From positions 1-60,418 of the forward strand of contig NZ_JAVHUY010000062.1 in NCBI RefSeq assembly GCF_031085175.1: a stretch of 60,418 bases of DNA. The letters run 5' to 3'. Shown here piece after piece: positions 14,473-55,889 of this stretch; position 1 is the stretch's first letter, and every line of letters starts with the position of its first letter. The notes beneath the pieces were generated by a model that did no database searches, was not told the DNA's origin, and saw nothing but the letters and a program-made list of their open reading frames with translations. The position numbers and the translations under genes were made by a program. Origin of the DNA: Phytohabitans maris (GTDB taxonomy: Bacteria; Actinomycetota; Actinomycetes; Mycobacteriales; Micromonosporaceae).

Positions 14473-14720
14473 CTACCGCGACGTCCGCGGTGGTCCGGAC
14501 CGTTGCTCCCGCGGCCTCACCCTGCGCGATCGCGGGGGCCGGCGCGGAACGCGCCGACCCCCTGACCAACATCCGCCGACCGGCTCCCGCAGGCCGCAGT
14601 GGGTTGTGAACCGCGGAGGGCGAGGCCGCGGGAACGCACCCCAAGAAAACGCTCCGCTGCGCTCCACGTTTCCCCGGGGACCCCGCGCAACGGTCCGCAC
14701 CCCGACGGACGTCGCGGTAG
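14473..14720. repeat. MITE-like element or nested inverted repeat
   Basis: Two 34-bp arms (14473-14506 and 14687-14720) are near-perfect inverted repeats: the outer 15 bp (CTACCGCGACGTCCG) and inner 11 bp (CGGACCGTTGC) are identical and the middle 8 differ. A second inverted pair lies inside (CCCGCGGCCTC near 14509 and GAGGCCGCGGG near 14617). The 248-bp element contains no gene and sits between two convergent genes, filling almost the whole gap. It could be a miniature transposable element or a large two-way terminator. Confidence 0.75.
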
Positions 14721-14733
14721 CACTATGTTTCTG

Positions 14734-19152: not shown

Positions 19153-19225
19153 GCGCCCGTAGCTCAATGGATAGAGCATCTGACTACGGATCAGAAGGTT
19201 AGGGGTTCGAGTCCCTTCGGGCGCG
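19153..19225 (+). tRNA. tRNA-Arg(ACG), integration target
   Basis: A 73-nt tRNA with paired acceptor GCGCCCG/CGGGCGC, anticodon stem TCTGA/TCAGA around CTACGGA (anticodon ACG at 19186-19188) and T-arm GGGTTCGAGTCCC. It reads the CGN arginine codons and is still intact. Its 3-prime half, from the anticodon loop, is repeated at 32691-32733. The gene is therefore the attachment site of element A, and the integrated DNA restores its 3-prime end. Confidence 0.96.
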
Positions 19226-19226
19226 C
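19184..19226 (+). repeat. att repeat, left copy (attL) inside tRNA-Arg
   Basis: This 43-bp block starts at CTACGGATCAG in the anticodon loop, ends one base past the tRNA, and is identical to 32691-32733. It is the core of site-specific integration by the neighbouring tyrosine recombinases. Confidence 0.92.
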
Positions 19227-21482: not shown

Positions 21483-22220
21483 GTGGCCTACCAGCTCGTC
21501 GCCGAGGTGCTCGACCACGCGCCCCCGATGACACCGGCCGAGCGCCTACTCCTAGTGGCGATCGCCGAGCAGGTGCGCCTGCCGTCGCGCACGCGCCCGA
21601 TCGCGACCGAGGACCTAGTCCGGCGCGTGGGCATCGAGGAGCGTGGCGTGCGCGCCGCGCTGCGTCGGCTCGCCGAGCGCGGACTCGACGTCCGCGTGGT
21701 ACGGGGCACCGACTCACGCGGACTGCCCGTCTACGCGACACGAGGGACCCTCCCGCAGTACCGCCTCCCGGAGCTACCGGTGCCGCCGGGCTGCTCGTGC
21801 GCGGCGTGCGGGGATGGCGGCACCGTGGCGCCCCCTGCGCTCGCATATGGCGGCACTGTGGTGCCGCCATCGCGCCCGGATGGCGGCACGCCCATGCCAG
21901 ATGGCGGCACTGTGGTTACCGATGGCGGCACTGTGGTGTACCCGATCGGTAACCACGGTGCCGCCCCTACCGTCCCTACCCCGGGTTCCGTACGCGCGCG
22001 CGCCCGCGCACGGGACTCGTCTGCTCCGCTGCCGGGGAGCCTGGTGCAGCGCGAGCTAGCAGCCCGTCGCGTGGAGGCGGCCGCTCAGCGATCGGTGCCG
22101 CCGTGGCAGGCCGAGCTGGCCGAGCGCGAGGTGCCCGCGCACATCGCCGCCGCGCGCGCTCGCCGCGGTGCCGAGGAGGCGCGCCGTGCGCTCGCGGCCG
22201 CCCGGGAGGAGCCGGCATGA
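21483..22220 (+). CDS. Winged-helix replication-type protein with embedded repeats
   Basis: This 245-aa protein begins with a winged-helix region (MTPAERLLLVAIAEQV, TEDLVRRVGIEERGVRAALRRLAERG) of the kind found in phage and plasmid replication initiators. A middle segment holds repeated GGTV-P motifs, encoded by five iteron-like DNA repeats. The C-terminal 80 residues are Ala/Arg/Glu-rich helix. It starts with GTG 3 bp after the excisionase gene. The fold and position suggest initiation of element replication. No catalytic domain is visible, so it would need host helicase and primase. Confidence 0.7.
   Translation: MAYQLVAEVLDHAPPMTPAERLLLVAIAEQVRLPSRTRPIATEDLVRRVGIEERGVRAALRRLAERGLDVRVVRGTDSRGLPVYATRGTLPQYRLPELPVPPGCSCAACGDGGTVAPPALAYGGTVVPPSRPDGGTPMPDGGTVVTDGGTVVYPIGNHGAAPTVPTPGSVRARARARDSSAPLPGSLVQRELAARRVEAAAQRSVPPWQAELAEREVPAHIAAARARRGAEEARRALAAAREEPA
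21814..21965. repeat. Iteron-like repeat cluster, possible replication origin of element A
   Basis: ATGGCGGCAC occurs at 21814, 21847, 21880, 21901 and 21922, so spacings are 33, 33, 21 and 21 bp. The copy at 21847-21870 is a perfect 10-bp-arm palindrome with a TGTG centre. The copy at 21903-21920 has an 18-bp inverted partner at 21948-21965 with one mismatch. The 21-bp spacing is two helical turns. A similar site lies in the DUF2637 gene at 30623-30672. Protein-level repetition explains part of the pattern but not the inverted copy. Confidence 0.6.
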
Positions 22221-24135: not shown

Positions 24136-25611
24136 ATGCCACGCCCGATTCCCACCATCAAGGCCGACCTAAGCGAGGCGAAGTCCGCGCTGGCCCGGCT
24201 GGAAAGCGACGCTGAGGAGGTCGTCCGGTCCGCCGGCGACGCCGAGCTGACCGACGGCCAGCAGACCCGGCTGGAGCGGATCGAGACCGGCGCGCGCCGC
24301 AAGCGTGAGCTGATCCGCGCCCTGGAGGGCGAGCTGCGCGACTCTGCGGTGGACGGTGTCACCAGCGGCCGCCTGCGCGGCGAGAACGGCGCCGGCGTCC
24401 GGCCAGGCAACGGCCCGGAGATCATGCGCCGCGTCGAGCCGTACCAGGACGACCTGCCCGCCCTGCGCGACGGCCGGTACAACGACGGCGACGTCATCTC
24501 GCGGGCGCTCAAGGCCGTCGAGGTCGCACCGGCGCACATGGACGACAAGGCGCGCGAGCACGTGCAGCGCCTGGTCGACGTCGACGACAGCGACGAGAAC
24601 CGGCAGGCCGCGCTGATCGCCCGGCACATGCTGATGACCGGCAGCCCTGGCTACCACGAGCAGTTCCGGGAGTACATGCGCACCCGCGGCGCGTACGCCG
24701 GCGAGCTGCTGCGCGCGTCGATGACGCTGACCGACGCCAACGGCGGCTTCCTGGTGCCGTTCACGCTGGACCCGACGATCATCCTCACCAACGCCGGGAT
24801 CATGGACCCGCTGCGGCAGATCTCGACGATCAAGCAGATCGCGACCGACTCGTGGAACGGCGTCACCAGCTCGGGCGTCACGGCGAGCTGGACCGCGGAG
24901 GGCGCCGAGGCCTCGGACGGTACGCCGACGTTCGCTCAGCCGACCATCACGCCGAAGCGCGCTGACGCGTGGGTGGAAGGCACGTACGAGGTCCTGGCCG
25001 ACTCCGGTTTCGCGAACCAGCTCGGCCGGCTGCTCGCCGACGCCAAGGCCCGGCACGAGGGTGCCGCGTTCGCCACCGCCAACGTCGGCGCCACCCGTCC
25101 GCGCGGTGTGGTCGCCGCGGTGGCCGCCGTGACCGCGTCCATCGTGGCGTCGGCGGCGACCAACGCGCTCGCGATCGGGGACGTCTACAACGTCTCGGAC
25201 GCGCTGCGGCCACGCGACGCCGCTCAGGCGTCGTGGCTGGCCAACAAGAAGATCTACAGCCGGGTACGGCAGTTCGACACCTCGGGCGGTGGCTCGTTCT
25301 GGGCGAACCTCGGCATGGGCCGGCCGCGGATGCTGCTGGACGCCCCGGCCTACGAAGCGTCCACGATGCAGTCGGCGGTGACCACCGGCGGCCTGGTGCT
25401 GTTGGCCGGCAACTTCGCCGAGTACTACATCGTGGACCGGATCGGCATGTCCGTGCAGTACAACCCCATGTTGATGGGGCTGACCACGGGCCGGCCGACC
25501 GGCAAGGCCGGCTGGCTGGCGCTGTGGCGGGTCGGCGCCGACGTCGTCGACGTCGACGCGTTCCGCCTGCTCCAGCTCAACGCCGTCGCCTCGAACGTGC
25601 CGCTGGCCTGA
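24136..25611 (+). CDS. HK97-fold major capsid protein
   Basis: This 491-aa protein has an N-terminal coiled-coil scaffold region (about 1-75, SEAKSALARLESDAEEVVR). A capsid domain from about 195 follows with SMTLTDANGGFLVPFTLDP, WTAEGAEASDGTPTF and a late VGADVVDVDAFRLLQL strand, the standard HK97 order. It forms the icosahedral shell after the N-terminus is removed. A GAGGAGACG ribosome site precedes the ATG. The protease gene comes after the capsid, not before it as in most phages. No portal or terminase is nearby. Confidence 0.93.
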   Translation: MPRPIPTIKADLSEAKSALARLESDAEEVVRSAGDAELTDGQQTRLERIETGARRKRELIRALEGELRDSAVDGVTSGRLRGENGAGVRPGNGPEIMRRVEPYQDDLPALRDGRYNDGDVISRALKAVEVAPAHMDDKAREHVQRLVDVDDSDENRQAALIARHMLMTGSPGYHEQFREYMRTRGAYAGELLRASMTLTDANGGFLVPFTLDPTIILTNAGIMDPLRQISTIKQIATDSWNGVTSSGVTASWTAEGAEASDGTPTFAQPTITPKRADAWVEGTYEVLADSGFANQLGRLLADAKARHEGAAFATANVGATRPRGVVAAVAAVTASIVASAATNALAIGDVYNVSDALRPRDAAQASWLANKKIYSRVRQFDTSGGGSFWANLGMGRPRMLLDAPAYEASTMQSAVTTGGLVLLAGNFAEYYIVDRIGMSVQYNPMLMGLTTGRPTGKAGWLALWRVGADVVDVDAFRLLQLNAVASNVPLA

Positions 25612-25620
25612 GGCACAGCC

Positions 25621-26223
25621 GTGGCGACCATCACCCGCGCCTGGCCGCTGGACGACATCACCGTCCGGCGGTCAGGCGACGGCCGCACCGTCGAGGCGTA
25701 CTGCGCGCTGTTCGACGACGAGTACGAGGTCCAAGACACGCACGGCCACTACATGGAGATCATCGACCGGGCCGCGTTCGACCACGCTCTGTCGCAGGGC
25801 CTGACGCGGACGTCGGTGCTGTTCAACCACGGCATGACCGTGCACGGCACCCCGGACGCGATCGCGTCGGTACCGCTGGGCACACCGATCGAGGTGCGCC
25901 CAGACAGCCGCGGCCTGCTCACCGTCACCCGCTACAACCGCAGCGCGTTGGCCGACGCGACGCTGGAGGCGATCCGGCACGGCGACATCACCGGCCAGTC
26001 CTTCCGCGGCCGCGTCTACCGCTCCTCGCCCACGCGGGTGCCGAAGGTACGGCCGGGCGCCGCGCTGCCCACCGTCGTGCGGTACGAGCTCGGCCTGACC
26101 GACTACGGGCCCACCCCCGTGCCGGTCAACGCCGAGCCCATGATGGTGGCCGTTCGCTCCAGCGGCGTGCGGTCCGGTGCCGAGTGGCTGGAGCGGATCC
26201 GCGCGCTCTGCGTTGACGGGTAG
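25621..26223 (+). CDS. HK97 family prohead protease
   Basis: This 200-aa serine protease processes the capsid scaffold. Key parts are the VEAYCALFDDEYEV start, TSVLFNHGM with the likely catalytic His70, RGLLTVTRYN, and GDITGQSFRGRVY with Ser127. It starts with GTG 9 bp after the capsid gene. Length is normal. The order capsid then protease is reversed relative to HK97. The next coding segment, a tape-measure remnant, begins 5 bp after it. Confidence 0.88.
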   Translation: MATITRAWPLDDITVRRSGDGRTVEAYCALFDDEYEVQDTHGHYMEIIDRAAFDHALSQGLTRTSVLFNHGMTVHGTPDAIASVPLGTPIEVRPDSRGLLTVTRYNRSALADATLEAIRHGDITGQSFRGRVYRSSPTRVPKVRPGAALPTVVRYELGLTDYGPTPVPVNAEPMMVAVRSSGVRSGAEWLERIRALCVDG

Positions 26224-26228
26224 CCGCT

Positions 26229-27945
26229 GTGGGCGATACGTCGCTGGTCTTCAACCTGATCGGCCGGGACCGCGGCGTCTCGGGCACGCTGGCGCGTACC
26301 GCCATGTCGGTACGCGCGGCCAGCTCGTCGACGCGCGTCACCGGTCTTGCGGTGGGCGTGGCTGCGGCGTCGGCGGCCGCGCACGCGGTCGCGCTCGGTG
26401 CCGCCAGCGCCGGCGTTGTCGGCGCCGCCGGGTTGCTGCCCGCCATCCTCGGCGGTGCCGGCCTGCAAATGGTCGCGCTGCGGGTGGTGACGTTCGGGCT
26501 GTCCGACGCGTGGACCGCCACCGGTGCGGCCGCGACCGGGGGAGGCTCGTCGACGGCGGCCGCCGGCAAGGCGGTGGCGGCCGCGCACCGCGAGCTGGCC
26601 GCCGCTGGGCAGGCGTTCGAGGAGGCGCAGCGCGACGCCATCGCCGCGCAGGCCGTGGTGACCACCGCCCGCACTGGTGGGCGGGAGCGGCTGGAGGACC
26701 TCGGCCGTGCGGTCGCCGGCGTCGCCCTGGACGTCGAGGCCGCCGAGCAGGCGGTGCAGCGCGCGGACAAGGACCTGCAGGTGGCTCGCCGCACCGGCAA
26801 GCCAGCCGACATCGCCGCCGCTGACCTGGCCTACCGGCAGGCCCTGCACAGCCTCGGCGAGGTACGTGACCGCAGTCAGGACCTGGCCGCCGAGCAGGCC
26901 GAAAGCCAACGCCGCGGCGTCGACGGCTCTACCGCCGTGCTGGACGCCGAACGCCGGCGAGAAGACGCGCAGCGGGACCTGGCCCAGGCTGCCCGGCGGC
27001 TCGCCGACGCCCAGCAGGCCGTACGGGACGCCTCCACGGGCGCGGCCGCCGCAGGCGTCGACCGGGCCACCGAAGCCCTGGCGCGGCTGGCGCCGAACGC
27101 CCGCGCCGTGGTGCTCACCGCCCGGGCGCTCGCGCCGGCGTGGCAGGCCGCTGGCCGGGCCGGGCAGCAGGCCACCTGGGAGGGCACGGCCGCCGGGCTA
27201 CGCCGCCTGTCCGGCCTGTACCTGCCCGCCGTGCGCGGCTGGCTGCCCCGCATGGGCAGGTCGTTCAACACCGCCATCCGGAGCACCCTCGGCCTGGCCG
27301 CTACCGGACGCACCGTCCGCGACGTGGGCCAGCTCGCCGACGCCACCGCGGCGTCGACCGGCCGGCTCGCCGCCGGCGTACGCCCCGTGCTGAACGGCCT
27401 CATGCAGTTCGCCGCCGTGGGCGCCGGGTTCCTGCCCGGCCTCGCCGGACACACGCTGACCCTGGCCGGCCGGTTCGAACGCTGGGCGATCGCCGCCCGC
27501 GAGTCCGGGCGCATGCAGCAGTGGATCGGTAACGCCCTCGGCCTGATCCGCCTACACAGATGCGTTCCGCCGCGTGATCCACCTGTGGAACGGCTTCGAG
27601 CTGGGCGCACCCGCCGTAACCATCGCCGGCATCCACATCCCCGCCATGCGCCTGCCCCTGCCGAACATCCCCGACATCCCCAGCCTGGCCGAGGGCGGCA
27701 TCGTCAAGGCCAACCGCGGCGGCGTGCCCGAAGTGGTCCCGCTCCCACCCGAACTCAGGCGCCGGGTACGCCGGAACCAGACCGGCCTCGCCGGCGTACC
27801 GGCCGACACTGACACCGGTTCGAACGTGGGAGGCGTCGACGACCGCAAGCGCGCGATGGCCTCCTGGTTCCACGAGGCGGTACGTACCGGCAAGCTCCGC
27901 CTCTACGTCGAAGGCGAACGCGTCACGACTGCCCGGCTGGCCTGA
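26229..27945 (+). pseudogene. Phage tape-measure protein, internally deleted
   Basis: The first 440 codons form a tape-measure N-terminus: hydrophobic Ala/Gly segments (AAGVVGAAGLLPAILGGAG) and long coiled coils (VAAAHRELAAAGQAFEEAQR). At about 27547 the frame changes. A second frame (27550-27945) carries a tape-measure-like C-terminus: FRRVIHLWNGFELGAP and IPSLAEGGIVKANRGG. A deletion of the middle, leaving a frameshift, is the simplest reading. A full tape measure of this type is about 1400 aa, as at 43919-48157. The rest of the tail region is absent. Confidence 0.75.
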
Positions 27946-32623: not shown

Positions 32624-34390
32624 TTACGCGGACGTCCGTTGACAAGGGTATCCATACGATGGCGAACGCCGGCGGACGCTACGCCCAGACCTACGGATCA
32701 GAAGGTTAGGGGTTCGAGTCCCTTCGGGCGCGCCACGGTTTAGCAGGGCGTTCTCTCCATCGGAGGGAGCGCCCTTCATCATTTCCGGGCCATCGGGGAC
32801 CAAGCGGAGACCAGCAGGATCGGGCAACCTTCCAACGACCGCCCGCGGCACGATCCCCACGACCGCCTCGGCGGCCTCCTTGGCGACCTCCACGAACACC
32901 GACGTGTACGTGTCGTCGGTGATCTTCCGGCTGCTGTGGCCGAGCATCTCCGAGATCACCTTGGTATCGATGCCCGCGGCCTTCGCCAACGTGGCGGCGC
33001 CGTGGCGGAGGTCGTGCAGTCGGATCGGTGGCAGGCCCGCCTCCTCGACCAGCGAGTTGAACATGTCGGTCACGGACGCCGGGTGGAGCTCACTGCCGTC
33101 CTCGCGGGTGAAGACGCGGCCGGAGTCGATCCAGGCGCTTCCCCAGCGGAGACGGTCCTCAAGTTGTTGGCGCCGGTGTGCACGGATCACCTGCACGGTG
33201 CCGGCGTCGAGCGCCACGTCGCGGTTGCCCGCCTCGGACTTGGGCTCCCCCTCCTCGACCTCCCAGCCGACCGTGACGAGCTGCTCGGCGATGGTCGCGA
33301 TGCCCTCGTCGAGATCAAGGTCGATCCAGCGCAGGCCGCACGACTCACCGCGGCGCAGGCCGCGGAACGTGATCAGGTGGAACATCGCGTACAGGCGGTG
33401 GCCGCTTACGAAGTCGAGGAAGCGGCCGGTCTGCGCGGGCGTCCACACCATGACCTTGGACGGCCGCTCCTTCTCGCGCAGCGCCTCGATCTCGGCCGCG
33501 AGGCGCCGGGCCTCCGTCCAGTCGCAACGGTCGAGCGCGCCCGTACGGTCGGTCTCCAGCGCCGCGATCTGCGTCCGGATCTCCTGCCAGCGGGCGACCC
33601 GTTCCTTCGTCCACACGAGGGCCTTCGGCTTCTTCGCGGACTCCATCTTGATCAACTTGCCGCCGGCGACGTTGACCTCGACCAGGCCCTCCGCGCGGGC
33701 GTCGTTCAGCGCCGAACGCAAGCATGCCCGGATCCGCTGCTTAGTCGCAGGCCCGGCGATCTTTCGGTACCGCAGGGCGGCGCGCTGCTCCGCCGTGCCG
33801 TCCTTCCGCACCTGGCGGATACGCTCGTTCTCCGCGTCGATCTCGTCGAACATCGCGGAGATGTGCGCCGCTCGCAGCTTCTCGATCGGAATGCGGCCGA
33901 GGTGCGGCACCAGGTAGACGCGGATGTGCGTCTCGTAGCCCCTGCGGGTGGTGCTGCGGATGTCCTTCTTTCCCGCGAGCCACGTCGTCAGGAAGTCGCC
34001 AACGAGCACGTCCGTGCTCACGGAGAGGCCGGTCTTCACGCGGCGCCGGATCACGTCGGCGGATGGCAGCGGCGCGCCAGCCTTCAGCGCGCGGTCGACC
34101 AGCGCCATGATCTCGCCGCGCTCCTTCTCACCCAGGCGGCCGGCCTCCGGGATGGCAAGCAGTGCGGCGACCGCAGTGCCTTCCTTGGCGGCCTCGTCCT
34201 GCGTCTTGCGGTTGCCGCGCTTTGGGCGGTTGCGTTTCTGGCCTCGCTCGACTGGGATGTCGACCATCCAAGACCAGTAGCCGTGGCGCGGGTTGTACGA
34301 GCCGTCCGCCCGGCGCAGCTTCGGGCACTTGGCGCCGAGCTCCTTGCCATCGGCCCGGCACCGGCACCGCTTGAAGGTGGAAACGTTCAT
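32624..34390 (-). CDS. int: Tyrosine recombinase (integrase) of element B, reading through att
   Basis: This 588-aa recombinase is longer than usual because of charged coiled insertions (about 170-300). Catalytic parts are present: GLRRGESCGLR, HDLRHGAATLAKAAG, LGHSSRKITDDTY with the tyrosine. The final 47 or so codons pass through the 43-bp att repeat and continue into element A until the stop at 32624. The C-terminus therefore depends on what lies beyond att and would change after excision. The ATG overlaps the stop of the XRE gene upstream (ATGA). Confidence 0.93.
   Translation of the reverse strand: MNVSTFKRCRCRADGKELGAKCPKLRRADGSYNPRHGYWSWMVDIPVERGQKRNRPKRGNRKTQDEAAKEGTAVAALLAIPEAGRLGEKERGEIMALVDRALKAGAPLPSADVIRRRVKTGLSVSTDVLVGDFLTTWLAGKKDIRSTTRRGYETHIRVYLVPHLGRIPIEKLRAAHISAMFDEIDAENERIRQVRKDGTAEQRAALRYRKIAGPATKQRIRACLRSALNDARAEGLVEVNVAGGKLIKMESAKKPKALVWTKERVARWQEIRTQIAALETDRTGALDRCDWTEARRLAAEIEALREKERPSKVMVWTPAQTGRFLDFVSGHRLYAMFHLITFRGLRRGESCGLRWIDLDLDEGIATIAEQLVTVGWEVEEGEPKSEAGNRDVALDAGTVQVIRAHRRQQLEDRLRWGSAWIDSGRVFTREDGSELHPASVTDMFNSLVEEAGLPPIRLHDLRHGAATLAKAAGIDTKVISEMLGHSSRKITDDTYTSVFVEVAKEAAEAVVGIVPRAVVGRLPDPAGLRLVPDGPEMMKGAPSDGENALLNRGAPEGTRTPNLLIRRSGRSVRRRSPSYGYPCQRTSA
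32691..32733 (+). repeat. att repeat, copy between elements A and B
   Basis: This block is identical over 43 bp to 19184-19226. It carries the 3-prime half of tRNA-Arg(ACG) without the 5-prime half. It is both the right end of element A and the left end of element B, whose integrase reads through it. No third copy was found to the right. Confidence 0.92.
32745..32775. terminator. Hairpin at the 3-prime end of integrase B, next to att
   Basis: Imperfect 14-bp arms (AGGGCGTTCTCTCC and GGAGGGAGCGCCCT) with a 3-nt loop lie 12 bp inside element B from att. The hairpin is within the reading frame of the long integrase. It may act as a terminator or a recombination feature. Confidence 0.45.
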
Positions 34391-35393: not shown

Positions 35394-35677
35394 GTGGCAA
35401 TCGGGCCGAGCCGGGCAAACGTTGGACCGCCGAGGCGGTGAGGGAACTCGGGCTCCGGATGGACGCCCGGACCTATTTCTCCGTGATCGGCGTCAGCGAC
35501 AGGACCGGCTACGAGCTGATCCGCCAGGGCCGTACTCCGACTACCCCGCTGAGGCTCGGCAATAAGTGGGTGTTCGCCACGCAGCCGGTGCTGGAGTGGC
35601 TCGGCGTCGTCGACGAGCCCTCCCATCCGACGCGCACGCCGCTGGCGGCGGTTCCCGATCCGCCGGAGGCAGCTTGA
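35390..35677 (+). CDS. AlpA-like DNA-binding protein
   Basis: This 95-aa protein has a helix-turn-helix (MDARTYFSVIGVSDRTGYEL), then RLGNKWVFATQPVLEWLGV, the wing and final helix of excisionase-type proteins. It follows the excisionase gene with a GTGA overlap and overlaps the next gene by TGATG. Two such proteins in a row are common in actinobacterial elements; one may act in excision and one in replication control. Confidence 0.75.
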   Translation: MSGNRAEPGKRWTAEAVRELGLRMDARTYFSVIGVSDRTGYELIRQGRTPTTPLRLGNKWVFATQPVLEWLGVVDEPSHPTRTPLAAVPDPPEAA

Positions 35678-36201
35678 TGTTCGCTCGCGGCGATCCCCAG
35701 ACGCACAGCGGCCCGGGAGTCCCCACTCCCGGGCCCGCTACCGATAACCCGCCCTCACCAAAGGATTCAGGTCTAGCCGTGACTCTACAGCCGCAGCCTG
35801 ACGGTGGTACTCCACCGGCCAGACGACCCGGCGACGGTGACCAGCATGTTGAGCACGAGCAGCTCGACCTCGTCGACCTGCTCGATGAGGATCCGCCCTC
35901 CCTCAAGGAGCGGTTCTGGGCCTTCCACGAGGCGAACCCGCTGGTCTACCAGGTGCTGGTCAGGCTGGCGCGCGAGTGGGTGGTGAGGACGGGGCGGCGC
36001 AAGATCGGCATCGCCGCGCTGTTCGAGCGCGCCCGCTGGGAGATCGCCTTGCAGACCACGGAGACGCCGCGCTGGAACAACTCGTATCGCGCGGCGTACG
36101 CGCGGCTGATCCTGAAGCAGGAGGCCGACCTCGCCGACCTGTTCGACTTGCGGAGGTCGGCTGCGGACGAGTGGCTGAGCGAGGTTGACGATGCTGCCTA
36201 G
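35677..36201 (+). CDS. Phage replication-region protein of unknown function
   Basis: This 174-aa protein has a disordered, proline-rich start and a folded C-terminal half (LKERFWAFHEANPLVYQVLV, TGRRKIGIAALFERARWEI, SYRAAYARLILKQEADLADL). This type of domain is frequent next to phage primases. The start is an ATG overlapping the upstream stop with GGAGG at 8 bp. It overlaps the Prim-Pol gene by about 11 bp. No function can be assigned. Confidence 0.75.
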   Translation: MFARGDPQTHSGPGVPTPGPATDNPPSPKDSGLAVTLQPQPDGGTPPARRPGDGDQHVEHEQLDLVDLLDEDPPSLKERFWAFHEANPLVYQVLVRLAREWVVRTGRRKIGIAALFERARWEIALQTTETPRWNNSYRAAYARLILKQEADLADLFDLRRSAADEWLSEVDDAA

Positions 36202-37024
36202 CCTGCCCGCGCCCGCGCTCTCGCTCGTCGCCGCCGGCCGGCGGGTCTTCCCATGCGCGCCTGGGGCGAAGGTGCCGCTGTACGCCAACCCGCACTCGCG
36301 TGGAAGCGAGGAGCGCGACACGTGCCGCGGTGAGTGCGGGGCGTGGGGACACGGCGTGCTCGACGCCACCACCGACCCGGAAGTCATCGCCGTCTGGTGG
36401 ACGCGCACACCGGCCGCCAACATCGGCGTTGCCTGCGGGAGGCCTGGCGGTCCGGATGTCCTCGACGTCGACGTGAAGGACGGCCAGCCGGGGGTGGCCA
36501 GTCTCGCGAAGCTCCGCGACGCCGGGTACGTCTCGGGCGCCGAGGCGACGGTACGCACGCCGAGCGGCGGGCTTCACGTTTGGTTCGCCGGGACGGATCA
36601 GGGCAACGGGCGCATCCCACGGCACGGCGTCGACTTCCGATCGACAGGCGGCTACGTCGTGGCGCCTCCGTCCGTCGTCAACGGCAACCCGTACGAGCTG
36701 ATCGCCTTCAGGGAGCCGACCGGCGTCACGTTGAACTTCGCCGCGGTCCGGGAGTTCCTGGCGCCACCCCGGCCGGTACGACTCCTCCCAGCCACCGCGA
36801 GCGCCACCTTCGACGGGCTGATCCGGCACATCGCCGAGCAGGGGGCGTCCTCGCACAACAGGAACGAGGCGCTGCACTGGGCCGCGTCCAGGGCGGCCGA
36901 GCAGGGCGCTGGTGAGGCCGTGTTCGCGGCACTCGCGGCCGCAGCTGTTTCCAACGGGCTGTCGCTGGCCGAGGCGGAACGCACCGTCCACTCCGCACGA
37001 CGGCGCACAGGGGCGAATCTGTGA
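36191..37024 (+). CDS. Bifunctional DNA primase/polymerase (Prim-Pol)
   Basis: This 277-aa protein is an archaeo-eukaryotic-type primase. VFPCAPGAKVPL opens the domain, VLDVDVKDG holds the catalytic aspartates (Asp92 and Asp94), PSGGLHVWF gives the conserved histidine near 129, and FRSTGGYVVAPPS is the last motif. It makes primers and extends them at the element origin. A short C-terminal helical domain follows. The gene overlaps both neighbours, and the DUF3987 partner follows directly, so the two probably form the replication unit of element B. Confidence 0.92.
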   Translation: MLPSLPAPALSLVAAGRRVFPCAPGAKVPLYANPHSRGSEERDTCRGECGAWGHGVLDATTDPEVIAVWWTRTPAANIGVACGRPGGPDVLDVDVKDGQPGVASLAKLRDAGYVSGAEATVRTPSGGLHVWFAGTDQGNGRIPRHGVDFRSTGGYVVAPPSVVNGNPYELIAFREPTGVTLNFAAVREFLAPPRPVRLLPATASATFDGLIRHIAEQGASSHNRNEALHWAASRAAEQGAGEAVFAALAAAAVSNGLSLAEAERTVHSARRRTGANL

Positions 37025-38781
37025 CCAACGACCTGACGCCCGGCAGCCTCGACCACGTGTGGGAGGAACCGCTCCCCCTGGGCTGGCGCACCGACCTGCC
37101 ACCCTTCCCGGGGCTCCCCGGCCTTCCCGGCGAGTACACCGAGGCCCTGGCAACTGCCACGCAGACGCCCCTCGACCTTCCGGGCAGTGTGGCGCTGGGC
37201 GTGCTCTGCGCGTGCATCGGTGGCCGGGTCCGGGTCCGGGCGCGGGCCGGCTGGGTTGAGCCAACCAATGCGTGGATCGTGCCCGTCCTGCTTCCTGGCG
37301 CCCGCAAAAGCCCAGTCGTAGAGGCGTGCACCTCGTCGCTGATGGACGCCGAGGACGTGCTCCGCGAGTCCATCGCGGACAAGCGCCGCAACGACCTGGT
37401 GGAGAAGGAAGCCGGCGAGAAGCGTGCCCAGCAGCTCCTGGCCGTCGCCGCGAAGAAAGGCGACCGGGACGCACTCGATGCGGCGCAGGAGGCCGCGAAG
37501 AAGGCCGAAGAGATCCAGATTCCCGTCTGGCCGCAGCTCACGATCGACGACTCGACGCCCGAGGCGCTCGTATCGGTCCTCGCCGAGCAGGGCGGGCGAG
37601 TGGCGGCGATCTCCGCCGAGGCAGGCGTGTTCGAGGCGCTGACCGGTCGGTACGCGAAGAAGGCGAACCTCGACGCGGTGCTGAAGGCGCACGCCGGGGA
37701 CACCATCCGGGTGACGCGCCAGCTCCGGGAGCCGCAGCTCGTACGCCGGCCGGCGCTGACGTTGGTCGCTTCCATCCAGCCGTATGCGCTGCGGGAGATG
37801 GTGGATCGGGCCGACTTCGCCGGCCGTGGCCTGCTCGCCCGGTGTCTCTGGGCGCTCCCAACAGACAACGTCGGGTGGCGAGAGATCGGCGCGCCTCCGG
37901 TGCCCGACGAACTCGCCGAACAGTGGGGCGACCTGGTCCGCCGCCTGGCGATCGCGATGGCGACCGCAACGGCGCCCGTGGTCGTCTCCTTGTCGGGAGA
38001 GGCCGTCGCCGCGCACATCGCGTACGAGCGTCGGATCGAGGCAATGCTGCGGCCCAACGGGCCGATGGGCGCACCGCTGATGCGCGGCTGGGGTTCCAAG
38101 CTCGCCGGTGCGACGCTGCGGATCGCTGGCGCGATCCACGCTGCGACGGCAAAGGACATCGCAGCGCCGATCTCCGGCGAGACGATGGCTGCGGCCGTCA
38201 ATCTCGCAGAGTACTACCGGGCGCACGCAGCGGTCGCGCTGCGGCCAGGCGAGGATGCGGAGACCACCAACGCCCGATCGCTGATCGAGTGGTTAATCAC
38301 GCACTCCGAGGCAGGCCGGTTCCGGTCACGAGACATCCAGCGTGGCGGACCCTCGCAGCTTCGGCAGAAGGCTGCGCTGGCGCCGGTCCTGGCCAGGCTC
38401 CTCGACCTGGGCTGGATCCGACCGGCTACGACGGTGGACAGCCGCGCAGATACATATGAGCTCCACCCGGAGGCGCAGAAGCATCTGGATGCCTGCGACA
38501 CCGGCGACAGTTGCGACAGTGACGAAGAAACCGCAGGTCAAGGCCTGTTCGACGGGCCTACGACAGTGTCGCGACAGCTTGCGACACCTGCGACAGATCA
38601 GCCGAGTGTCGCTAACCGTCGCAGCAACCTGCGACACGCCCGAAAGCGATCGAACCTGCCTCTGACCAGCGAAGACACGGTGACTGTCGCAGCAGTCGCG
38701 GGTGTCGCGACGGAATGCCCCGTATGCAGCTGGCCATTCGGCTCGACCGGCCACGAGATCAACTGTGGAGGCGTCGGATAG
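37021..38781 (+). CDS. DUF3987 replication protein
   Basis: This 586-aa protein belongs to the DUF3987 family found beside phage Prim-Pol genes. It has an acidic start, LPGSVALGVLCACIGGRV, a coiled coil (about 115-170), a Walker-A-like GARKSPVVEA, AISAEAGVFEALTGRY, and a C-terminal winged-helix part. DUF3987 proteins are thought to be helicase-like partners of primases. The last 90 codons include an unusual cluster of GCGACA/TGTCGC repeats and then CPVCSW, a possible zinc knuckle. It starts with GTG overlapping the Prim-Pol stop. Confidence 0.85.
   Translation: MTNDLTPGSLDHVWEEPLPLGWRTDLPPFPGLPGLPGEYTEALATATQTPLDLPGSVALGVLCACIGGRVRVRARAGWVEPTNAWIVPVLLPGARKSPVVEACTSSLMDAEDVLRESIADKRRNDLVEKEAGEKRAQQLLAVAAKKGDRDALDAAQEAAKKAEEIQIPVWPQLTIDDSTPEALVSVLAEQGGRVAAISAEAGVFEALTGRYAKKANLDAVLKAHAGDTIRVTRQLREPQLVRRPALTLVASIQPYALREMVDRADFAGRGLLARCLWALPTDNVGWREIGAPPVPDELAEQWGDLVRRLAIAMATATAPVVVSLSGEAVAAHIAYERRIEAMLRPNGPMGAPLMRGWGSKLAGATLRIAGAIHAATAKDIAAPISGETMAAAVNLAEYYRAHAAVALRPGEDAETTNARSLIEWLITHSEAGRFRSRDIQRGGPSQLRQKAALAPVLARLLDLGWIRPATTVDSRADTYELHPEAQKHLDACDTGDSCDSDEETAGQGLFDGPTTVSRQLATPATDQPSVANRRSNLRHARKRSNLPLTSEDTVTVAAVAGVATECPVCSWPFGSTGHEINCGGVG
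38495..38708. repeat. GCGACA/TGTCGC cluster, possible replication origin of element B
   Basis: Seven GCGACA (38495, 38504, 38513, 38571, 38581, 38590, 38631) and four TGTCGC (38567, 38607, 38685, 38703) fall within 214 bp, including the perfect palindrome TGTCGCGACA at 38567-38576. The copies lie in all three reading frames and both orientations, so the signal is at the DNA level. Position inside the 3-prime end of the replication gene suits an iteron origin. Confidence 0.68.
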
Positions 38782-43918: not shown

Positions 43919-46900
43919 ATGGTCCGCCGTCGCGTTGCTGTCGAGTTCACGGCGGAGATGCGCGCGTTCCTGCGCCGCATGAGGGACGGCGAGCGGGCCA
44001 CCGGCGACCTTAACCAGTCCACGCAGGACGCGCGGGAAGAGGTCCGCAAGTTCGGGCAGGAGTCGGACAAGGCTGCCCGGCAGGTCGCCGACTCGGCGCG
44101 CCGGTCGGCGCACGAATGGCGGTCGGCGGCCGGGCGGATGCGGTCCGCCCGCCGCGACTTCGAAGCCGCCGGGGCCGAGGCCGGGCGGGCGACCGGCGAC
44201 AAGTTCGTGTCCGAGTCGCAGCGCACGATGCGCGACGCCCGGGGCCGGCTCGTCGCCGCCGGCCACGCCGCCGGCCGGGCGATCGGCGACGGTCTCGACC
44301 GGGCGGTCCTGGCCCGGCTCCGCGACGTGCGAGCCCGGCTCGCCGCCCTCCGGGCTGAAGGAATCGGCCCGATCCACACCCCCACCATCGGCGGTGGCGG
44401 CGGGGACGGCGGCGGGGGTCCGATTGGTGACGCCGCCGGCGCGATCGCCGAGCTCGCCGACGAGGTGCTCGAAGTCGGCGAACGGGCCCGCACGATCACC
44501 GCCGCCACCCGCGCCGCGACACGGCAGATCGAGGCTGCGAACCGGATCGCCCTGAACCGGATCGGGCAGCCGTACTACACCGACTCCGGCCGCTACGCAC
44601 CCCATGCGGAGGCCCGCGCGGCCGGGCTCATGGGCGACGCCGCCGACTCGGTACGCCGCCTGCGGGACGAAACCCAGCGCGCCCGGACCGAGGTCGCCGA
44701 GCTGGCGGCAGCGTCCAACCAGGCCGCTACCGAGGTAGCCCGCTCGGCGGAACGGGCAGCCGGGTACTGGCGGGACGCCGCCGGCCGGCTCCGCGACACG
44801 CGCGGCAAGTTCGCGAAGGCCGGCGCCGACGCCGGCCAGGCCCTCGCCGACGGGTTCGAGCGAGAGGCCGGCAGCCGGCTCCGCGCGGCCGCCGGGCGCG
44901 GGTTTGGGGCCGGGGACGCGGTCCGGGCGGCACTGCGGCGTGCCGGGAACATCGACGTGTCCGGGCCGCTGTCCGCGCGCTCCATGGCGATCCTCGCCGC
45001 CGGTGGTGTCGCCGCGGTCGCCGCCCTGCAGGGTGTGCCGCCGGTGCTGGCCGCGATCGGCGGCGGCCTCGGCTCCATCCCCTCCCTGGCCGCCGGCGCC
45101 ACCGGCTCCATCCTCACCTTGGTCGCATCGCTGTCCGGCGTGGGCGACTCGATTGGCGAGATCTTCGACCCACCCGCCGGCGGCGGAAGCGGCGGCATCG
45201 ATCGGACCGCCGCAGCGACCAGGCAGTTGGAGTCGGCCGAACGCGGGCTGGCCAGGGCGCAGCGCGACAGCCGGCTGGCCCAGCACGAGGTCAACCGGGC
45301 CCGGCAGCAGGCCACCCGCGAAATCCGGGACATGGGTATCGCGTTGGGCCGGGTCGCGTTGGACGAACGCGACGCCGCCCTGTCCGTGCGCGAGGCCGCC
45401 GAGGAGTTGGCCCGGCTGCAACGCGACCGCGCCCTCGACCCGACCGGCGTGTCCGAACTGGAGCTCGAACGCGCTCAGTTGGCGTACGACCAGGCCATCC
45501 AGTCGCAGATCGAGGTCGCCGCCCGCGCCCAGGACGCCCGCGAGGATCAGGCCGCCGCCGCCCGGGCGGGAGTGGAAGGGTCAGAGCAGGTGCAGGCCGC
45601 TCTGCGCCGGCAAGCGGACGCCGCTGACCAGGTCCTCGACGCAACGAACGCCGTGATCGACGCGCAGGAGGCCCTCGCCCAGGCGGGTGCCGGCGCCGGT
45701 GGCGGCGGCGCAGCAACCGCCTACAGCAAGCTGTCCCGGGAGGGCAAGCAGTTCGTCGACTCCATCCGGGCGCAGAAGGACGCGATCTTCGACCTGAAGA
45801 ACCTCGGCCAGGACACGATCCTGGACGGCCTGGACCGCGAGTTCACGCAGACGTTCGAGCACACCCTGCCGTTCGCGCGCAAACAGGTCGTCCGGTTCGG
45901 CGACACCTGGAACGACACCTTCAAGGCGCTGTTCCGGCTCGGCCGGGATGATGAGTTCCTCGCCGGCCTCGACGTTGCCTTCGGTGCCACCGACCGGTTC
46001 TTCGACAAGGTCAACACCCGCATCCCGACCACCGGTCGCGCGTTCGCGAAACTGTTCACCGGTTCCGAGGTTTTCGTCGACCGGTTCGGCGACAGCCTCC
46101 TGTCCTATGTGGACGACTTCAACGAGTGGATCGACGAAGCGTCCTCATCCGGGCGGCTGGAAGAGATCTTCGAAGGGGCCGCCGAGCAGGCCGACGCCCT
46201 CCTCGACATCGGCAAGGAGATCATCCGCCTCGTCGCGCGGATCTCCGGGCAGGGCATCGACTCGCCACTGCTGCGTGACGCCGCCGACGGCCTCAAACGC
46301 TTCAACGACGAAGCCCGCCGCGCCGAGGACCTCGACGGGATCATCGCCACCGGCAACGCCGCGATCCGCGGCCTCGTCGACGTGCTCCTCATCCTCGGCG
46401 ACACCGCCTCCGACGTGCTCGCCGACCCGGCCACCCGCGACGCCGTCGAGATCTTCTTCGACGTACTCACCCTCGGCGCCGGCGTCGTCCACGACCTCGT
46501 CGGCCTGTTCCAACTGCTGCCCGGCCCTATCCAGTCCACCGTGCTGGCCGGCGCCGCCCTCGCGCTCGTCGGCGGCCGCCTGTTCCGGGTCTTCGAACGG
46601 GTCGAGGGCGTCGCCGGCCGGGTCAACAACCGGATCGGGCAAATGGGGCCGCTCGGCGCGCAGGCCGCGGTCGGCCTCGAACGTGCCGGCCGTGGCGCCC
46701 GCGTCGCCGGTGCGGCGCTACTCACCGCGCAGGTCGCCTCGGCCGCGTTGGGCGAGGACCTGCGGGCCCAGGTCGGCCCGCTTTCGCGGAACCTCGAAGA
46801 GTTCGCCCGCGGCGGCCAGGTCGGAGGGGAAGCGGCCCGCCTCTTCGGTGACGACCTAGGCAAGCTGGATCAGGCACTCAAGGACATCGCCGACACCGGC

Positions 46901-48157
46901 GCGTGGTCCAGTTTCGTGCGCGGGACGACCGGCATGGTGGAGTCGCTGACCGGGTTGGGTAACGCGTACGACCTGAGCCTTCTCCACAGTCGTGAGCGGC
47001 TCGAGGCCCTCGACGCGGCGTTGGCTCAGATGGTCAACTCCGGCAACGCTACCGGCGCCCAGGCGGCGTTCAACAAGCTCGCCGCCTCGGCCGCCGAGCA
47101 GGGCATCAGCGTCCGGGAGCTCAACAGCGTGCTACCGACCTACGCGAACGCGATCGAGGAGGCCGGCGGCGCCAACGCGATCGCTGCCGAGCAGATCGAC
47201 GCGTTCGCCGAGGCGCAGCGGACCGCGCAGGACGCCACCACTGATTGGCTGGACGCCGAGCTCGGTGTGGAGGAGGCGCTCGCCCGCGCCTCCGACACGA
47301 TCTCCGAGAACGGCGAGGCATGGAACCTCAACACGGAGGAGGGCCGCGAGAACCGGCGCGCCCTGATGGACGCGGCCTCGGCCGCGAACGACGCGGTGAC
47401 CGCGAAGCTGCGCGAGACCGGCAGTGTCGAGCAGGCCAACGTGGTCTACCGGGAGAACTACAACCGGATCTACAACCTGGCCCGGCAGGCCGGCGCGACG
47501 AAGGACGAGGCGAAGAAGCTCGCCGACCAGCTGCTGAAGACCCCCGACGTGAACGTCGCATTCGAGACACCTGGCCTGGCCACCGCGGTCCGGCTGGCCG
47601 AGGAGTACAACGAGATGCTCAACCGCATCCGCCGCAACGTGAAAGCAGGCGGGTTTGGTGTCAACGGCAACTACCTCGGGATCGGCGGTAACCGGTGGGG
47701 CGGCGTCTACGAACACGCCCAGGTCGGGCTGCTACGCGAGGCGCGCATATACTCAGCGGTCAACCCAGCCCGATACGCCTTCGCCGAGCCCGGAACGGGC
47801 GGGGAAGCGTTCATCCCGCGCAACGGCGACCGGGAGCGGTCCGTGTCGATCGGCCGGCACGCGATGAACTGGTACGGCTTCGACGTAGTGCCGAAGCCGG
47901 CGGTCACGGCTACCGGTGGGACCCGGCCGGCATCCGTCAACTACGGCCAGCTGGCCAGCTACGTGCGGGGCACGTCCGCCGCCGCCCCTGCGATCGACTA
48001 CGACCAGCTGGGCGCCGCAGTGGCACGCCACCAGCGGGGCGACCTCGCTGCCGTCGCAAGCGCGGTCGGGTCCAGCGAGACCGTCGTCCAGGTCGACGGG
48101 GTGGAACTCGCCCGGGCCGCCCGAGCTGGACAGCGAGATCTCGACCGCCGCGCCTAG
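43919..48157 (+). CDS. Phage tape-measure-like protein, 1412 aa
   Basis: This very long protein is built like a tail tape measure. Repeated coiled coils occur at 15-130, 230-310 and 430-590. Hydrophobic Ala/Gly/Val segments are present (ILAAGGVAAVAALQGVPPVL near 360, LAGAALALVGGRLFRVFERV near 880). A C-terminal region holds EYNEMLNRIRRNVKAGGFGV and EPGTGGEAFIPRNGDRERSV, the motif typical of tape-measure C-termini. It is intact and its architecture matches the broken gene in element A. No tail tube, baseplate or chaperone gene flanks it. It meets the lipoprotein gene tail to tail with a 4-bp overlap. Confidence 0.82.
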   Translation: MVRRRVAVEFTAEMRAFLRRMRDGERATGDLNQSTQDAREEVRKFGQESDKAARQVADSARRSAHEWRSAAGRMRSARRDFEAAGAEAGRATGDKFVSESQRTMRDARGRLVAAGHAAGRAIGDGLDRAVLARLRDVRARLAALRAEGIGPIHTPTIGGGGGDGGGGPIGDAAGAIAELADEVLEVGERARTITAATRAATRQIEAANRIALNRIGQPYYTDSGRYAPHAEARAAGLMGDAADSVRRLRDETQRARTEVAELAAASNQAATEVARSAERAAGYWRDAAGRLRDTRGKFAKAGADAGQALADGFEREAGSRLRAAAGRGFGAGDAVRAALRRAGNIDVSGPLSARSMAILAAGGVAAVAALQGVPPVLAAIGGGLGSIPSLAAGATGSILTLVASLSGVGDSIGEIFDPPAGGGSGGIDRTAAATRQLESAERGLARAQRDSRLAQHEVNRARQQATREIRDMGIALGRVALDERDAALSVREAAEELARLQRDRALDPTGVSELELERAQLAYDQAIQSQIEVAARAQDAREDQAAAARAGVEGSEQVQAALRRQADAADQVLDATNAVIDAQEALAQAGAGAGGGGAATAYSKLSREGKQFVDSIRAQKDAIFDLKNLGQDTILDGLDREFTQTFEHTLPFARKQVVRFGDTWNDTFKALFRLGRDDEFLAGLDVAFGATDRFFDKVNTRIPTTGRAFAKLFTGSEVFVDRFGDSLLSYVDDFNEWIDEASSSGRLEEIFEGAAEQADALLDIGKEIIRLVARISGQGIDSPLLRDAADGLKRFNDEARRAEDLDGIIATGNAAIRGLVDVLLILGDTASDVLADPATRDAVEIFFDVLTLGAGVVHDLVGLFQLLPGPIQSTVLAGAALALVGGRLFRVFERVEGVAGRVNNRIGQMGPLGAQAAVGLERAGRGARVAGAALLTAQVASAALGEDLRAQVGPLSRNLEEFARGGQVGGEAARLFGDDLGKLDQALKDIADTGAWSSFVRGTTGMVESLTGLGNAYDLSLLHSRERLEALDAALAQMVNSGNATGAQAAFNKLAASAAEQGISVRELNSVLPTYANAIEEAGGANAIAAEQIDAFAEAQRTAQDATTDWLDAELGVEEALARASDTISENGEAWNLNTEEGRENRRALMDAASAANDAVTAKLRETGSVEQANVVYRENYNRIYNLARQAGATKDEAKKLADQLLKTPDVNVAFETPGLATAVRLAEEYNEMLNRIRRNVKAGGFGVNGNYLGIGGNRWGGVYEHAQVGLLREARIYSAVNPARYAFAEPGTGGEAFIPRNGDRERSVSIGRHAMNWYGFDVVPKPAVTATGGTRPASVNYGQLASYVRGTSAAAPAIDYDQLGAAVARHQRGDLAAVASAVGSSETVVQVDGVELARAARAGQRDLDRRA

Positions 48158-55251: not shown

Positions 55252-55428
55252 GCTGGCCACGATAGCCACAACCCCTGACAAATCGTGCAGGCCGAGCTTC
55301 CGGCATGGTTCGGTCGTGATCTGCGCTTCGGCATCGCCGCCTGGCTGGACATTACGAACCAGAATGCGTCGCCGCCGTGGCCGGTCTCCCGCATCGAGCA
55401 CTCCCTGTGGTTCTGTCGCGGAACCGGT

Positions 55429-55481
55429 GGGGGGGGGGGGGGGGGGGGGGAGGCCCCGCCGCCCCCCCCCCCCCCCCCCCC
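55429..55481. repeat. Poly-G/poly-C inverted pair
   Basis: A run of 22 G (55429-55450), 11 bases, then a run of 20 C (55462-55481) forms a perfect homopolymer inverted repeat. It lies in the 242-bp interval before the CxxCxGxG membrane gene and is not coding. It could form cruciforms or quadruplexes, or be an assembly artefact at a scaffold join. Confidence 0.9.
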
Positions 55482-55493
55482 ACGGCCAGGTGT

Positions 55494-55889
55494 TCAGAAT
55501 CGACCACCCCGGTCAGGTGGTTGGTTTCCAACCACCTGACGCGCGCTGCTCGGCTGGCCGGCCCGGCGCAGCAGGCGGAAGTGGTCGACGAACCGGCGGC
55601 CCCACCGTTTCCGTGCGCCGGTGCCTCCGCACCACCAGCACGGCGGTTCGCCGCGGCGGACTCGGCGGGCGCCGTGGCCGCCGCAGATCCGGCAGGCCGT
55701 GAACGGGCGGAGCCAGCACTTCGCCGTGTACACCGCGGCCCAGCCGAGCCCGGCGAGGACGAGCAGCCCGAGCAGCCCGGCAGCGATCTCTGTAGCGGAC
55801 GCCCCGCTACGCGTAGCGGCTGCGCTACACAGGCCGCTACCGACCTGACCTGGGCAGACGGCCTGTTGTAGCGGCTGGACGGGGATCAT
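55494..55889 (-). CDS. Membrane protein with double CxxCxGxG motif
   Basis: This 131-aa protein has one transmembrane segment (EIAAGLLGLLVLAGLGWAAV) and then two DnaJ-like motifs, CRICGGHG and CWWCGGTG, with a basic tail. The zinc domain should be cytosolic. It starts in an ATGA overlap with the FtsK-type gene, so it belongs to the transfer operon. Its last codons include the hairpin at 55512-55540. A smaller soluble relative is at 7487-7666. Confidence 0.75.
   Translation of the reverse strand: MIPVQPLQQAVCPGQVGSGLCSAAATRSGASATEIAAGLLGLLVLAGLGWAAVYTAKCWLRPFTACRICGGHGARRVRRGEPPCWWCGGTGARKRWGRRFVDHFRLLRRAGQPSSARQVVGNQPPDRGGRF
55512..55540. terminator. Perfect hairpin at the end of the CxxCxGxG gene
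   Basis: Arms GTCAGGTGGTTGG (55512-55524) and CCAACCACCTGAC (55528-55540) pair perfectly with a TTT loop. It lies within the last codons of the 55494-55889 gene and could end its transcript. Confidence 0.65.

Follow-up and report, generated by a model that had tools for sequence, protein, structure and literature searches.

A mirror-image iteron array at the 3' end of a DUF3987 helicase gene as the probable replication origin of an integrative element of Phytohabitans maris

Introduction

Where does replication begin in mobile elements that carry a primase-polymerase (Prim-Pol) gene followed by a DUF3987 gene? We addressed this question in a 60,418-nt stretch of Phytohabitans maris DNA (contig NZ_JAVHUY010000062.1; hereafter the window), in which an integrative element, called element B, carries such a gene pair, and in which a short word is densely repeated within the 3' end of the DUF3987 open reading frame (ORF, 37021-38781). 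An initial annotation had placed this cluster in the DUF3987 gene, at the end of the Prim-Pol and DUF3987 operon, and proposed it as a strong candidate for the replication origin of element B. The placement is correct, and the proposal is supported by the comparative evidence presented here: very probably, the cluster is the origin of element B, composed of iterons to which the DUF3987 protein of the element itself, a predicted minichromosome maintenance (MCM)-like AAA+ helicase, would bind through its C-terminal winged helix.

DUF3987 domains have been predicted to be replication helicases of mobile elements, and winged helices have been suggested to serve origin recognition in that primase family (Kazlauskas 2018, PMC5862659); a word search of that text does not return iteron, and the parts considered hold no recognition code. 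A DUF3987 primase is also part of the PICMI satellites (PMC10803314), in a paper whose main text likewise lacks the word iteron. Within the part of the DUF3987 literature covered, a full-text search returned nothing joining DUF3987 with iterons, and no described origin for the Prim-Pol and DUF3987 module.

Results

A dense, mirrored repeat cluster in the DUF3987 gene

The exact word GCGACA/TGTCGC occurs 11 times within 38495-38708, in both orientations (starts at 38495, 38504, 38513, 38567(-), 38571, 38581, 38590, 38607(-), 38631, 38685(-) and 38703(-)), and a palindrome, TGTCGCGACA, lies at 38567-38576, so that copy number, extent and palindrome are as first annotated. Across the window the word occurs 67 times, against 65.3 expected from dinucleotide shuffles, and no 214-bp stretch outside the cluster holds more than two copies; the word is therefore not common overall, but packed at this one place. 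A Poisson estimate for 11 copies in 214 bp is 2e-15, before correction for the number of windows and words, and the only strand-merged 6-mer with a higher density in 214 bp is CCCCCC, from a poly-C run. By their coordinates, the plus-strand copies occupy all three codon positions of the DUF3987 frame, which bears out the earlier claim that they fall in three frames.

The repeated unit seems to be 7 bp or longer (TGCGACA). Allowing at most one mismatch to this word yields 13 units, 10 of which are mirror-paired about position 38601.5, an arrangement reached by 2 of 2000 shuffles of gaps and orientations. On each flank of the array, a 55-bp gap precedes the next exact unit. The parts of the array are as follows (> and < give unit orientation).

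38494..38709, no strand: iteron array with 11 exact GCGACA/TGTCGC and 13 units of at most one mismatch; layout about >>> 55 < >>> (centre) << > 55 <..<, centre near 38601.5
38494..38518, plus strand: left outer unit triplet (38494, 38503, 38512) at 9-bp pitch, facing the units at 38685 and 38703
38528..38540, plus strand: non-unit motif of the left spacer, AAACCGCAGGTCA (TTTCCGCAGSTCA in relatives)
38662..38676, minus strand: its mirror counterpart in the right spacer, CTGACCAGCGAAGAC (about CTGASCAGCGRAAAC in relatives)
38685..38709, minus strand: right outer units, exact at 38685 and 38703, the middle one, expected at 38694, being degenerate

None of four exact DnaA-box 9-mers was reported for the window.

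The adjacent protein is a predicted helicase with a winged helix

The gene that holds the array, and the parts of it that matter here, are:

37021..38781, plus strand: DUF3987 gene, 586 aa, proposed initiator helicase with an MCM-like AAA+ fold in the model (PF13148, E 8.8e-90)
38257..38463, plus strand: coding region of the C-terminal winged helix, residues 413-481; R441, G443 and P444 correspond to covarying positions 409, 411 and 412 of relative L064
38716..38766, plus strand: C-terminal Cys/His tail CPxC..HxxxC, in frame past the array, of low model confidence

An AlphaFold2 model of the protein, compared using VIA-align 2, has a predicted MCM-like core and winged helix, the latter consisting of elements H413-428, H436-442, H450-462, E466-468 and E478-481 with a predicted local distance difference test (pLDDT) score of about 71-90 over the block, followed by residues 494-586, which are disordered in the model. 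PF13148 was the only family matched at E 0.01, with no DUF927 or D5_N/Primase_Cterm match, and none of the ten proteins scanned, the DUF3987 protein included, matched PF01051 (Rep_3) at that threshold. A sequence search of the PDB with the DUF3987 protein returned no match up to E 1, and a profile of the winged helix gave weak PDB matches, the best at E 0.17.

Arrays recur at the same place with changing units

A single-protein query found no related loci in the genome-contig and viral-contig collections, and an alignment query then gave matches. Relatives of the DUF3987 protein are present in 80 of 300 genomes of the window's family (its own genome included), 34 of 160 of one genus of that family (overlapping the former set), 51 of 295 of another genus of the class, termed Streptomyces-like because a named Streptomyces plasmid groups with its loci, 34 of 397 of the order (the family included) and 6 of 396 of the phylum (own genome included), as well as at 51 IMG/VR loci. 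The family set comprised 95 regions, after an interrupted place in genome G095 was omitted and two pieces near 4654000 in G067 were merged. Since the loci are related and some places occur twice in the set, the counts that follow are not independent.

In many relatives, we observed arrays at the 3' end of the DUF3987 gene or just past its stop codon, with a word that differs between lineages and, for the most part, stays the same throughout a locus: GTTGACA, GGTGACA, GCTGACA or GGCGACA, and further TGACAGAA, CCACAGAA, CCGCAGAA and CCGCAAAA. Among the family loci first compared, dense exact GCGACA was shared by only the closest four (L006-L009), other lineages using other words.

The layout is kept more closely than the word. 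Two GCTGACA loci, L078 and L091, have gaps of 8, 54, 14, 10, 10, 29, 9, 10, 14, 54 and 8 in the orientation >> < >>> (centre) <<< > <<, and loci with GTTGACA or GGTGACA mostly deviate from this pattern by 0-1 bp, except for a central gap of about 18-29 and places where a unit is missing or added. Six exact units on each side are found in L078, L091, L094, L100 and L109, other loci having 5 to 7 per half, and L273 has 6+6 GACA cores with two outlying ones. Over the 31 loci with at least six identical units, the window included, 80% of units are mirrored, compared to 39% in shuffles. The 54-bp spacers also carry recurrent sequence: TTTCCGCAGSTCA in the left one and roughly its reverse complement in the right one, for which the window has the two spacer motifs listed above.

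Exact units in these 31 loci lie mostly beyond the coding region (217 of 323 after the stop codon, 106 inside the ORF). The window's own clade (the window and L035-L038) is different in that the DUF3987 ORF extends through the array, so that the putative origin would also code for the disordered tail; a CPxC...HxxxC-like sequence ends the proteins of the window, L035, L036 and L037, and is lacking in L038. This bears on the possibility that the repeats simply reflect a disordered protein tail of repetitive sequence (GDTGDTGD.../VAPVAPVAP), with no role at the DNA level. The coding position of the array in this clade, the single frame of the plus-strand units in L035 and the disorder of the tail in the model would all fit this reading; the window units, however, lie in three frames and on both strands, most units of the 31-locus set are past a stop codon, and spacing is kept across unit types, which together make the probability of this explanation close to negligible.

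Some loci contain two unit types: L086 has 8 GTTGACA and 4 GCTGACA units, L077 has 9 and 3, and in L037 a GCTGACA array is followed by half an array of GGCGACA. To judge from their sequences, these look like stages of a specificity switch. Arrays also occur outside integrated elements: a free circular Streptomyces plasmid, L135, with integrase, FtsK, Prim-Pol and a DUF3987-like gene, has one at about 14540-14810, and in the phage or viral-contig loci L218, L228, L242, L247 and L138 inverted unit sets lie on either side of an AT-rich spacer.

About 100 bp past the array, nine loci (L057, L058, L059, L063, L064, L098, L106, L116 and L118) have a AGATCTTGGCTC-like element followed by GCTCTCAG-type sequence; by eye, this element has an inverted partner upstream and is common to loci with different iteron words. 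An Rfam scan at gathering thresholds of L005, L139 and L098 returned only a tRNA. In a further locus (G064:C1 7363289-7390890; L069, L070 and L071), three DUF3987 modules of equal score lie about 8 kb apart and are probably tandem copies of one element.

The unit covaries with the winged helix

We labelled loci by unit where at least four copies of one of three word shapes were present, which gave 90 labels in a set of 158 loci (some places are included twice, as the two source searches overlap) and 71 after removal of near-duplicates. The residue at position 409 (L064 numbering; R441 in the window) goes with the middle base of the triplet that precedes CA: where this base is G, all 59 loci have Arg, and where it is C, all 12 have V, A, S or T. 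Because one word shape fixes this G, the other two shapes alone are a fairer test, and among them the rule holds in 23 of 23 loci for G and 12 of 12 for C. Among GNTGACA loci, position 412 is H, Q or R with G (12 loci), S, I, Y or A with T (15) and A or P with C (3), the single Ala-412 among the T loci being that of the mixed array of L086. Position 411 is Gly in the three CGACA loci and in none of the 30 TGACA loci. For base N, 11 of the top 15 covarying columns fall in the winged helix, 2.2 being expected. A tree built from just the helicase part shows repeated changes of word among close neighbours.

The rule for position 409 extends to loci outside the set. Of 13 new loci from other families of the order (7 further places outside the window's family, second copies included, were left out), all 12 with an array obey it, with Val or Ile at CCACAGAA-like and Ala or Thr at CCGCA words, although the arrays of L264, L266 and L271 have 4-5 copies and some of these loci are close mutual relatives. 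Of the 51 viral loci, 46 entered the analysis and 43 had sufficient length; the 40 with Arg-409 have on average 7.9 GACA/TGTC in the 350 bp past the stop codon compared to 2.5 expected, with the count at least doubled in 35 and not raised in two (L227 and L252), and the three without Arg-409 show no GACA/TGTC excess. Among the 68 unlabelled loci, Thr/Ser-409 loci have weak CCGC words and many Arg-409 loci weak TGCCA words, both of which fit the rule. Taken from sequence comparison, the joint change of unit and winged helix suggests a readable initiator-origin code.

Close relatives with different units differ mainly in the winged helix and the array. Across 370 pairs with helicase parts 88-99.5% alike, winged-helix identity is 90% for pairs that share a word and 69% for those with different words, a contrast matched by 0 of 2000 label shuffles, with pairs sharing loci and some places present twice. 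We further aligned the DNA of eight pairs, six with different and two with the same word. In four of the six (L078/L148, L091/L149, L084/L152 and L191/L175), the helicase part is alike at about 0.8-0.99 identity, the winged helix and array drop to about 0.33-0.8, and identity recovers to about 0.74-0.97 further downstream. The same-word pair L064/L090 keeps 0.77-0.95 through the array. Upstream of the DUF3987 gene, most aligned pairs are unlike.

The covariation also bears on whether the array might be an operator or a copy-number control site, at which the winged helix shuts off its own operon or handcuffs copies while replication starts elsewhere. Covariation with a winged helix shows recognition only, not initiation, and iterons often have a control role in addition. 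The array nevertheless lies at or past the 3' end of the operon and not at its promoter, and its partner is a helicase, in line with the initiators of Staphylococcus aureus pathogenicity islands (SaPIs) and of the staphylococcal cassette SCCmec, which have iterons at the same place (PMC7581432, considered in part); we regard this alternative as unlikely. In a related alternative, DUF3987 would bind the array for partition or plasmid incompatibility, with the origin elsewhere, for instance at the AGATCTTGGCTC...GCTCTCAGCGGGCC-like inverted repeat that several relatives conserve about 100 bp beyond their array. That repeat was not seen beside the window array when read by eye, and no ParA/ParB family was found among the neighbour proteins scanned, leaving this explanation very unlikely.

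Observations that weigh against an origin read by the winged helix

Several results do not sit easily with the proposed origin and its code. In the window, the exact word TGCGACA alone gives only 2 of 6 mirror-paired units, and the array has no AT-rich centre, the lowest 50-bp GC content of the region being 58%. With exact words the window fails the mirror test, as do L112-L114, L116 and L118, because the left half is missing or the right half is tandemly copied, and L037, because it has two unit types. The strict GACA-array cut, counted for 95 of 96 loci with the window included (L072 was too short), is passed by only 36 of 95 family loci, and the scan of the unlabelled loci showed no clear array in 14 or more that are full-length and have Arg-409 (an RDMHR/RDMYR-like group, L108, L115, L119, L123 and L125). 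Outside the set, no array was found at L263 (Lys-409), the thirteenth locus. The GC skew extremes of plasmid L135, at 17099 and 5621, do not point to its array.

The covariation and the DNA alignments have their exceptions as well. For NNNCAGAA-type (NNNCA-type) words, the winged helix holds 6 of the top 15 columns, against 2.5 expected, and helicase columns covary too; position 412 ranks 12 of 470 and 21 of 473 in pairwise comparisons, and 208 of 450 and 145 of 459 in other sets. As many winged-helix columns shift together and 412 is not at the top, the winged helix appears to move as a block, and single residue-base contacts are to be read as putative. Two of the six different-word pairs, L171/L190 (with masked bases) and L058/L063, do not regain identity downstream, and the same-word pair L180/L176 loses identity from the stop codon on.

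The assignment of the array as an origin remains very probable in our view, since arrays stand at the same place in many relatives with the unit free to change while the layout is kept, since units lie mostly past the stop codon and covary with the winged helix of the adjacent helicase, and since a similar arrangement occurs in a free circular Streptomyces plasmid and in phages.

Element B and its surroundings

The Prim-Pol and DUF3987 genes lie behind helix-turn-helix genes and a divergent tyrosine integrase. Further features are:

36185..37024, plus strand: Prim-Pol gene, overlapping the DUF3987 start (PF09250, E 6.2e-32)
35566..36201, plus strand: small gene upstream of Prim-Pol, phrog_13625, to which no function is assigned
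32624..34390, minus strand: tyrosine integrase of element B (PF00589)
32691..32733, plus strand: 43-bp att repeat, identical to the 3' end of a tRNA-Arg gene (19184-19226) and to a third copy on contig C2
55886..58051, minus strand: FtsK/TraB-like gene, probably of element B (phrog_1358 match at 55886-58048)
55792..55874, no strand: GTAGCGG/CCGCTAC cluster by the ftsK stop codon, by analogy with relatives a candidate TraB recognition site and not part of the origin

The att repeat at the integrase end is identical to the 3' end of tRNA-Arg(ACG), so that two elements, A and B, stand in tandem at one tRNA. Its third exact copy, at C2:228224-228266, is 8 kb from the contig end, which suggests that element B continues off the window contig into contig C2, where its right end may lie. 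A tyrosine integrase with an att site in a tRNA gene is also a feature of RepPP (SLP1-type) actinomycete integrative and conjugative elements. RepPP elements further have Prim-Pol directly followed by an SCO4618-like replication gene, as well as an FtsK/TraB-like transfer protein; in the window, Prim-Pol is followed by DUF3987, and the phrog_1358 match is a candidate for the transfer protein. To the right of the element B integrase, a tape-measure-like ORF (43919-48157) and the FtsK/TraB-like ORF form a mix of phage-like and conjugative-element genes. A near-palindromic poly-G then poly-C tract at 55424-55485 may be an assembly artefact.

The FtsK-like gene raises the possibility that the array is a double-strand transfer site (clt/TRS) read by the TraB/FtsK protein of the element, given that such a gene lies to the right in the window and that the transfer sites of TraB/FtsK plasmids are repeat arrays. 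A second array, however, stands at the ftsK stop codon itself: in a scan covering L040-L129 and L135, arrays with six or more copies of CGCTAGC/CGCTACC/CGATAGC per 250 bp start -4 to +20 bp from the FtsK/TraB-like stop codon in 28 of 28 relatives with both an array and an ftsK match (L103 and L119 have arrays and no ftsK match). The window has its GTAGCGG/CCGCTAC cluster there, which this word scan did not pick up. By analogy, the FtsK-side array is probably where TraB recognises DNA for transfer, which would make it a second array read by the product of the gene at whose 3' end it lies. As the GACA units change together with the winged helix of DUF3987 and are present in phage contigs, we consider a transfer function of the array in the DUF3987 gene extremely unlikely.

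The parallel first drawn with a cluster in element A did not survive comparison. That cluster (about 21810-21970) is made up of GATGGCGGCAC(TGTGGT), repeated in either orientation close to phage-like genes for a capsid (24136-25608), a protease (25621-26220) and a tape measure (26229-27809), and none of the four Prim-Pol matches of the genome is in element A; with a different word and no Prim-Pol match, it is a separate system.

Discussion

The array at the 3' end of the DUF3987 gene is best read as SaPI-like logic with another helicase family, an analogy that draws, as do those below, on parts of the cited papers. In SaPIs, short iterons lying immediately past the rep gene are recognised by the C-terminal domain of Rep, apparently in the form of two hexamers (Ubeda 2007, via PMC7581432), and both systems have an element-coded AAA+ helicase and a C-terminal winged helix, predicted from the model in the present case, and an array at or directly past the helicase gene, the window array overlapping the 3' end of its gene. 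SaPI Rep proteins are DUF927 or D5_N/Primase_Cterm helicases (PMC7581432), whereas only PF13148/DUF3987 is found here, and the units differ. The SCCmec proteins Cch2/CCPol-MP similarly combine a primase-polymerase and helicase operon with a C-terminal domain that binds repeats downstream of the helicase gene, but there with three AAGTG iterons and another helicase family, compared to about 12-14 mirror-array units in many loci here (PMC7581432).

Among actinobacterial elements, SLP1-type (RepPP) elements have Prim-Pol with an SCO4618-like gene (SCO4617-SCO4618; Ghinet 2011, PMC3218068), and a word search of the main text of that paper finds neither iteron nor ori named; a free plasmid with integrase, FtsK and Prim-Pol does have a DUF3987-like gene with an array (L135). 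In the Streptomyces plasmid pWTY27, RepA binds an iteron region beside a predicted primase/polymerase (PMC3583192), but RepA is described as a hypothetical protein, and its repeats are GTGGGAAC/TTCCCAC. ORF904 of pRN1 is a Prim-Pol/helicase/winged-helix protein with its origin just downstream of the gene, there a 100-bp stem-loop without iterons (PMC4234260).

From these likenesses and the layout, we infer how the array would work. About six units per half would seat one hexamer bound through its winged helices, and the mirror layout would set two hexamers head to head; the DUF3987 helicases would then melt and unwind the DNA, the neighbouring Prim-Pol would lay primers, and excised element B would replicate in both directions.

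A wider proposal, to which we give an even chance, is that the DUF3987 proteins are a large family of initiators that resemble MCM, bind origins and follow a readable residue-to-base code (at the Arg-441 position, Arg would read xG[A/C]CA, Val/Ile CCACA and Ala/Ser/Thr CCGCA). The 6+6 mirror array would be the template that places two hexamers head to head without a separate loader, and winged helix and array would form one cassette whose swap switches the replication compatibility group, from actinobacterial integrative elements to phages of low-GC hosts.

The assignment would name a concrete origin for the Prim-Pol and DUF3987 replication module of mobile elements, and would turn the suggested reading of origins by winged helices into a prediction for each base. 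It would also supply a naturally occurring set of initiators matched to their origins, among them mixed arrays that resemble switch intermediates (L086 and L037), and the 6+6 mirror layout may bear on how MCM-like helicases are set up as head-to-head double hexamers without loaders resembling the origin recognition complex (ORC).
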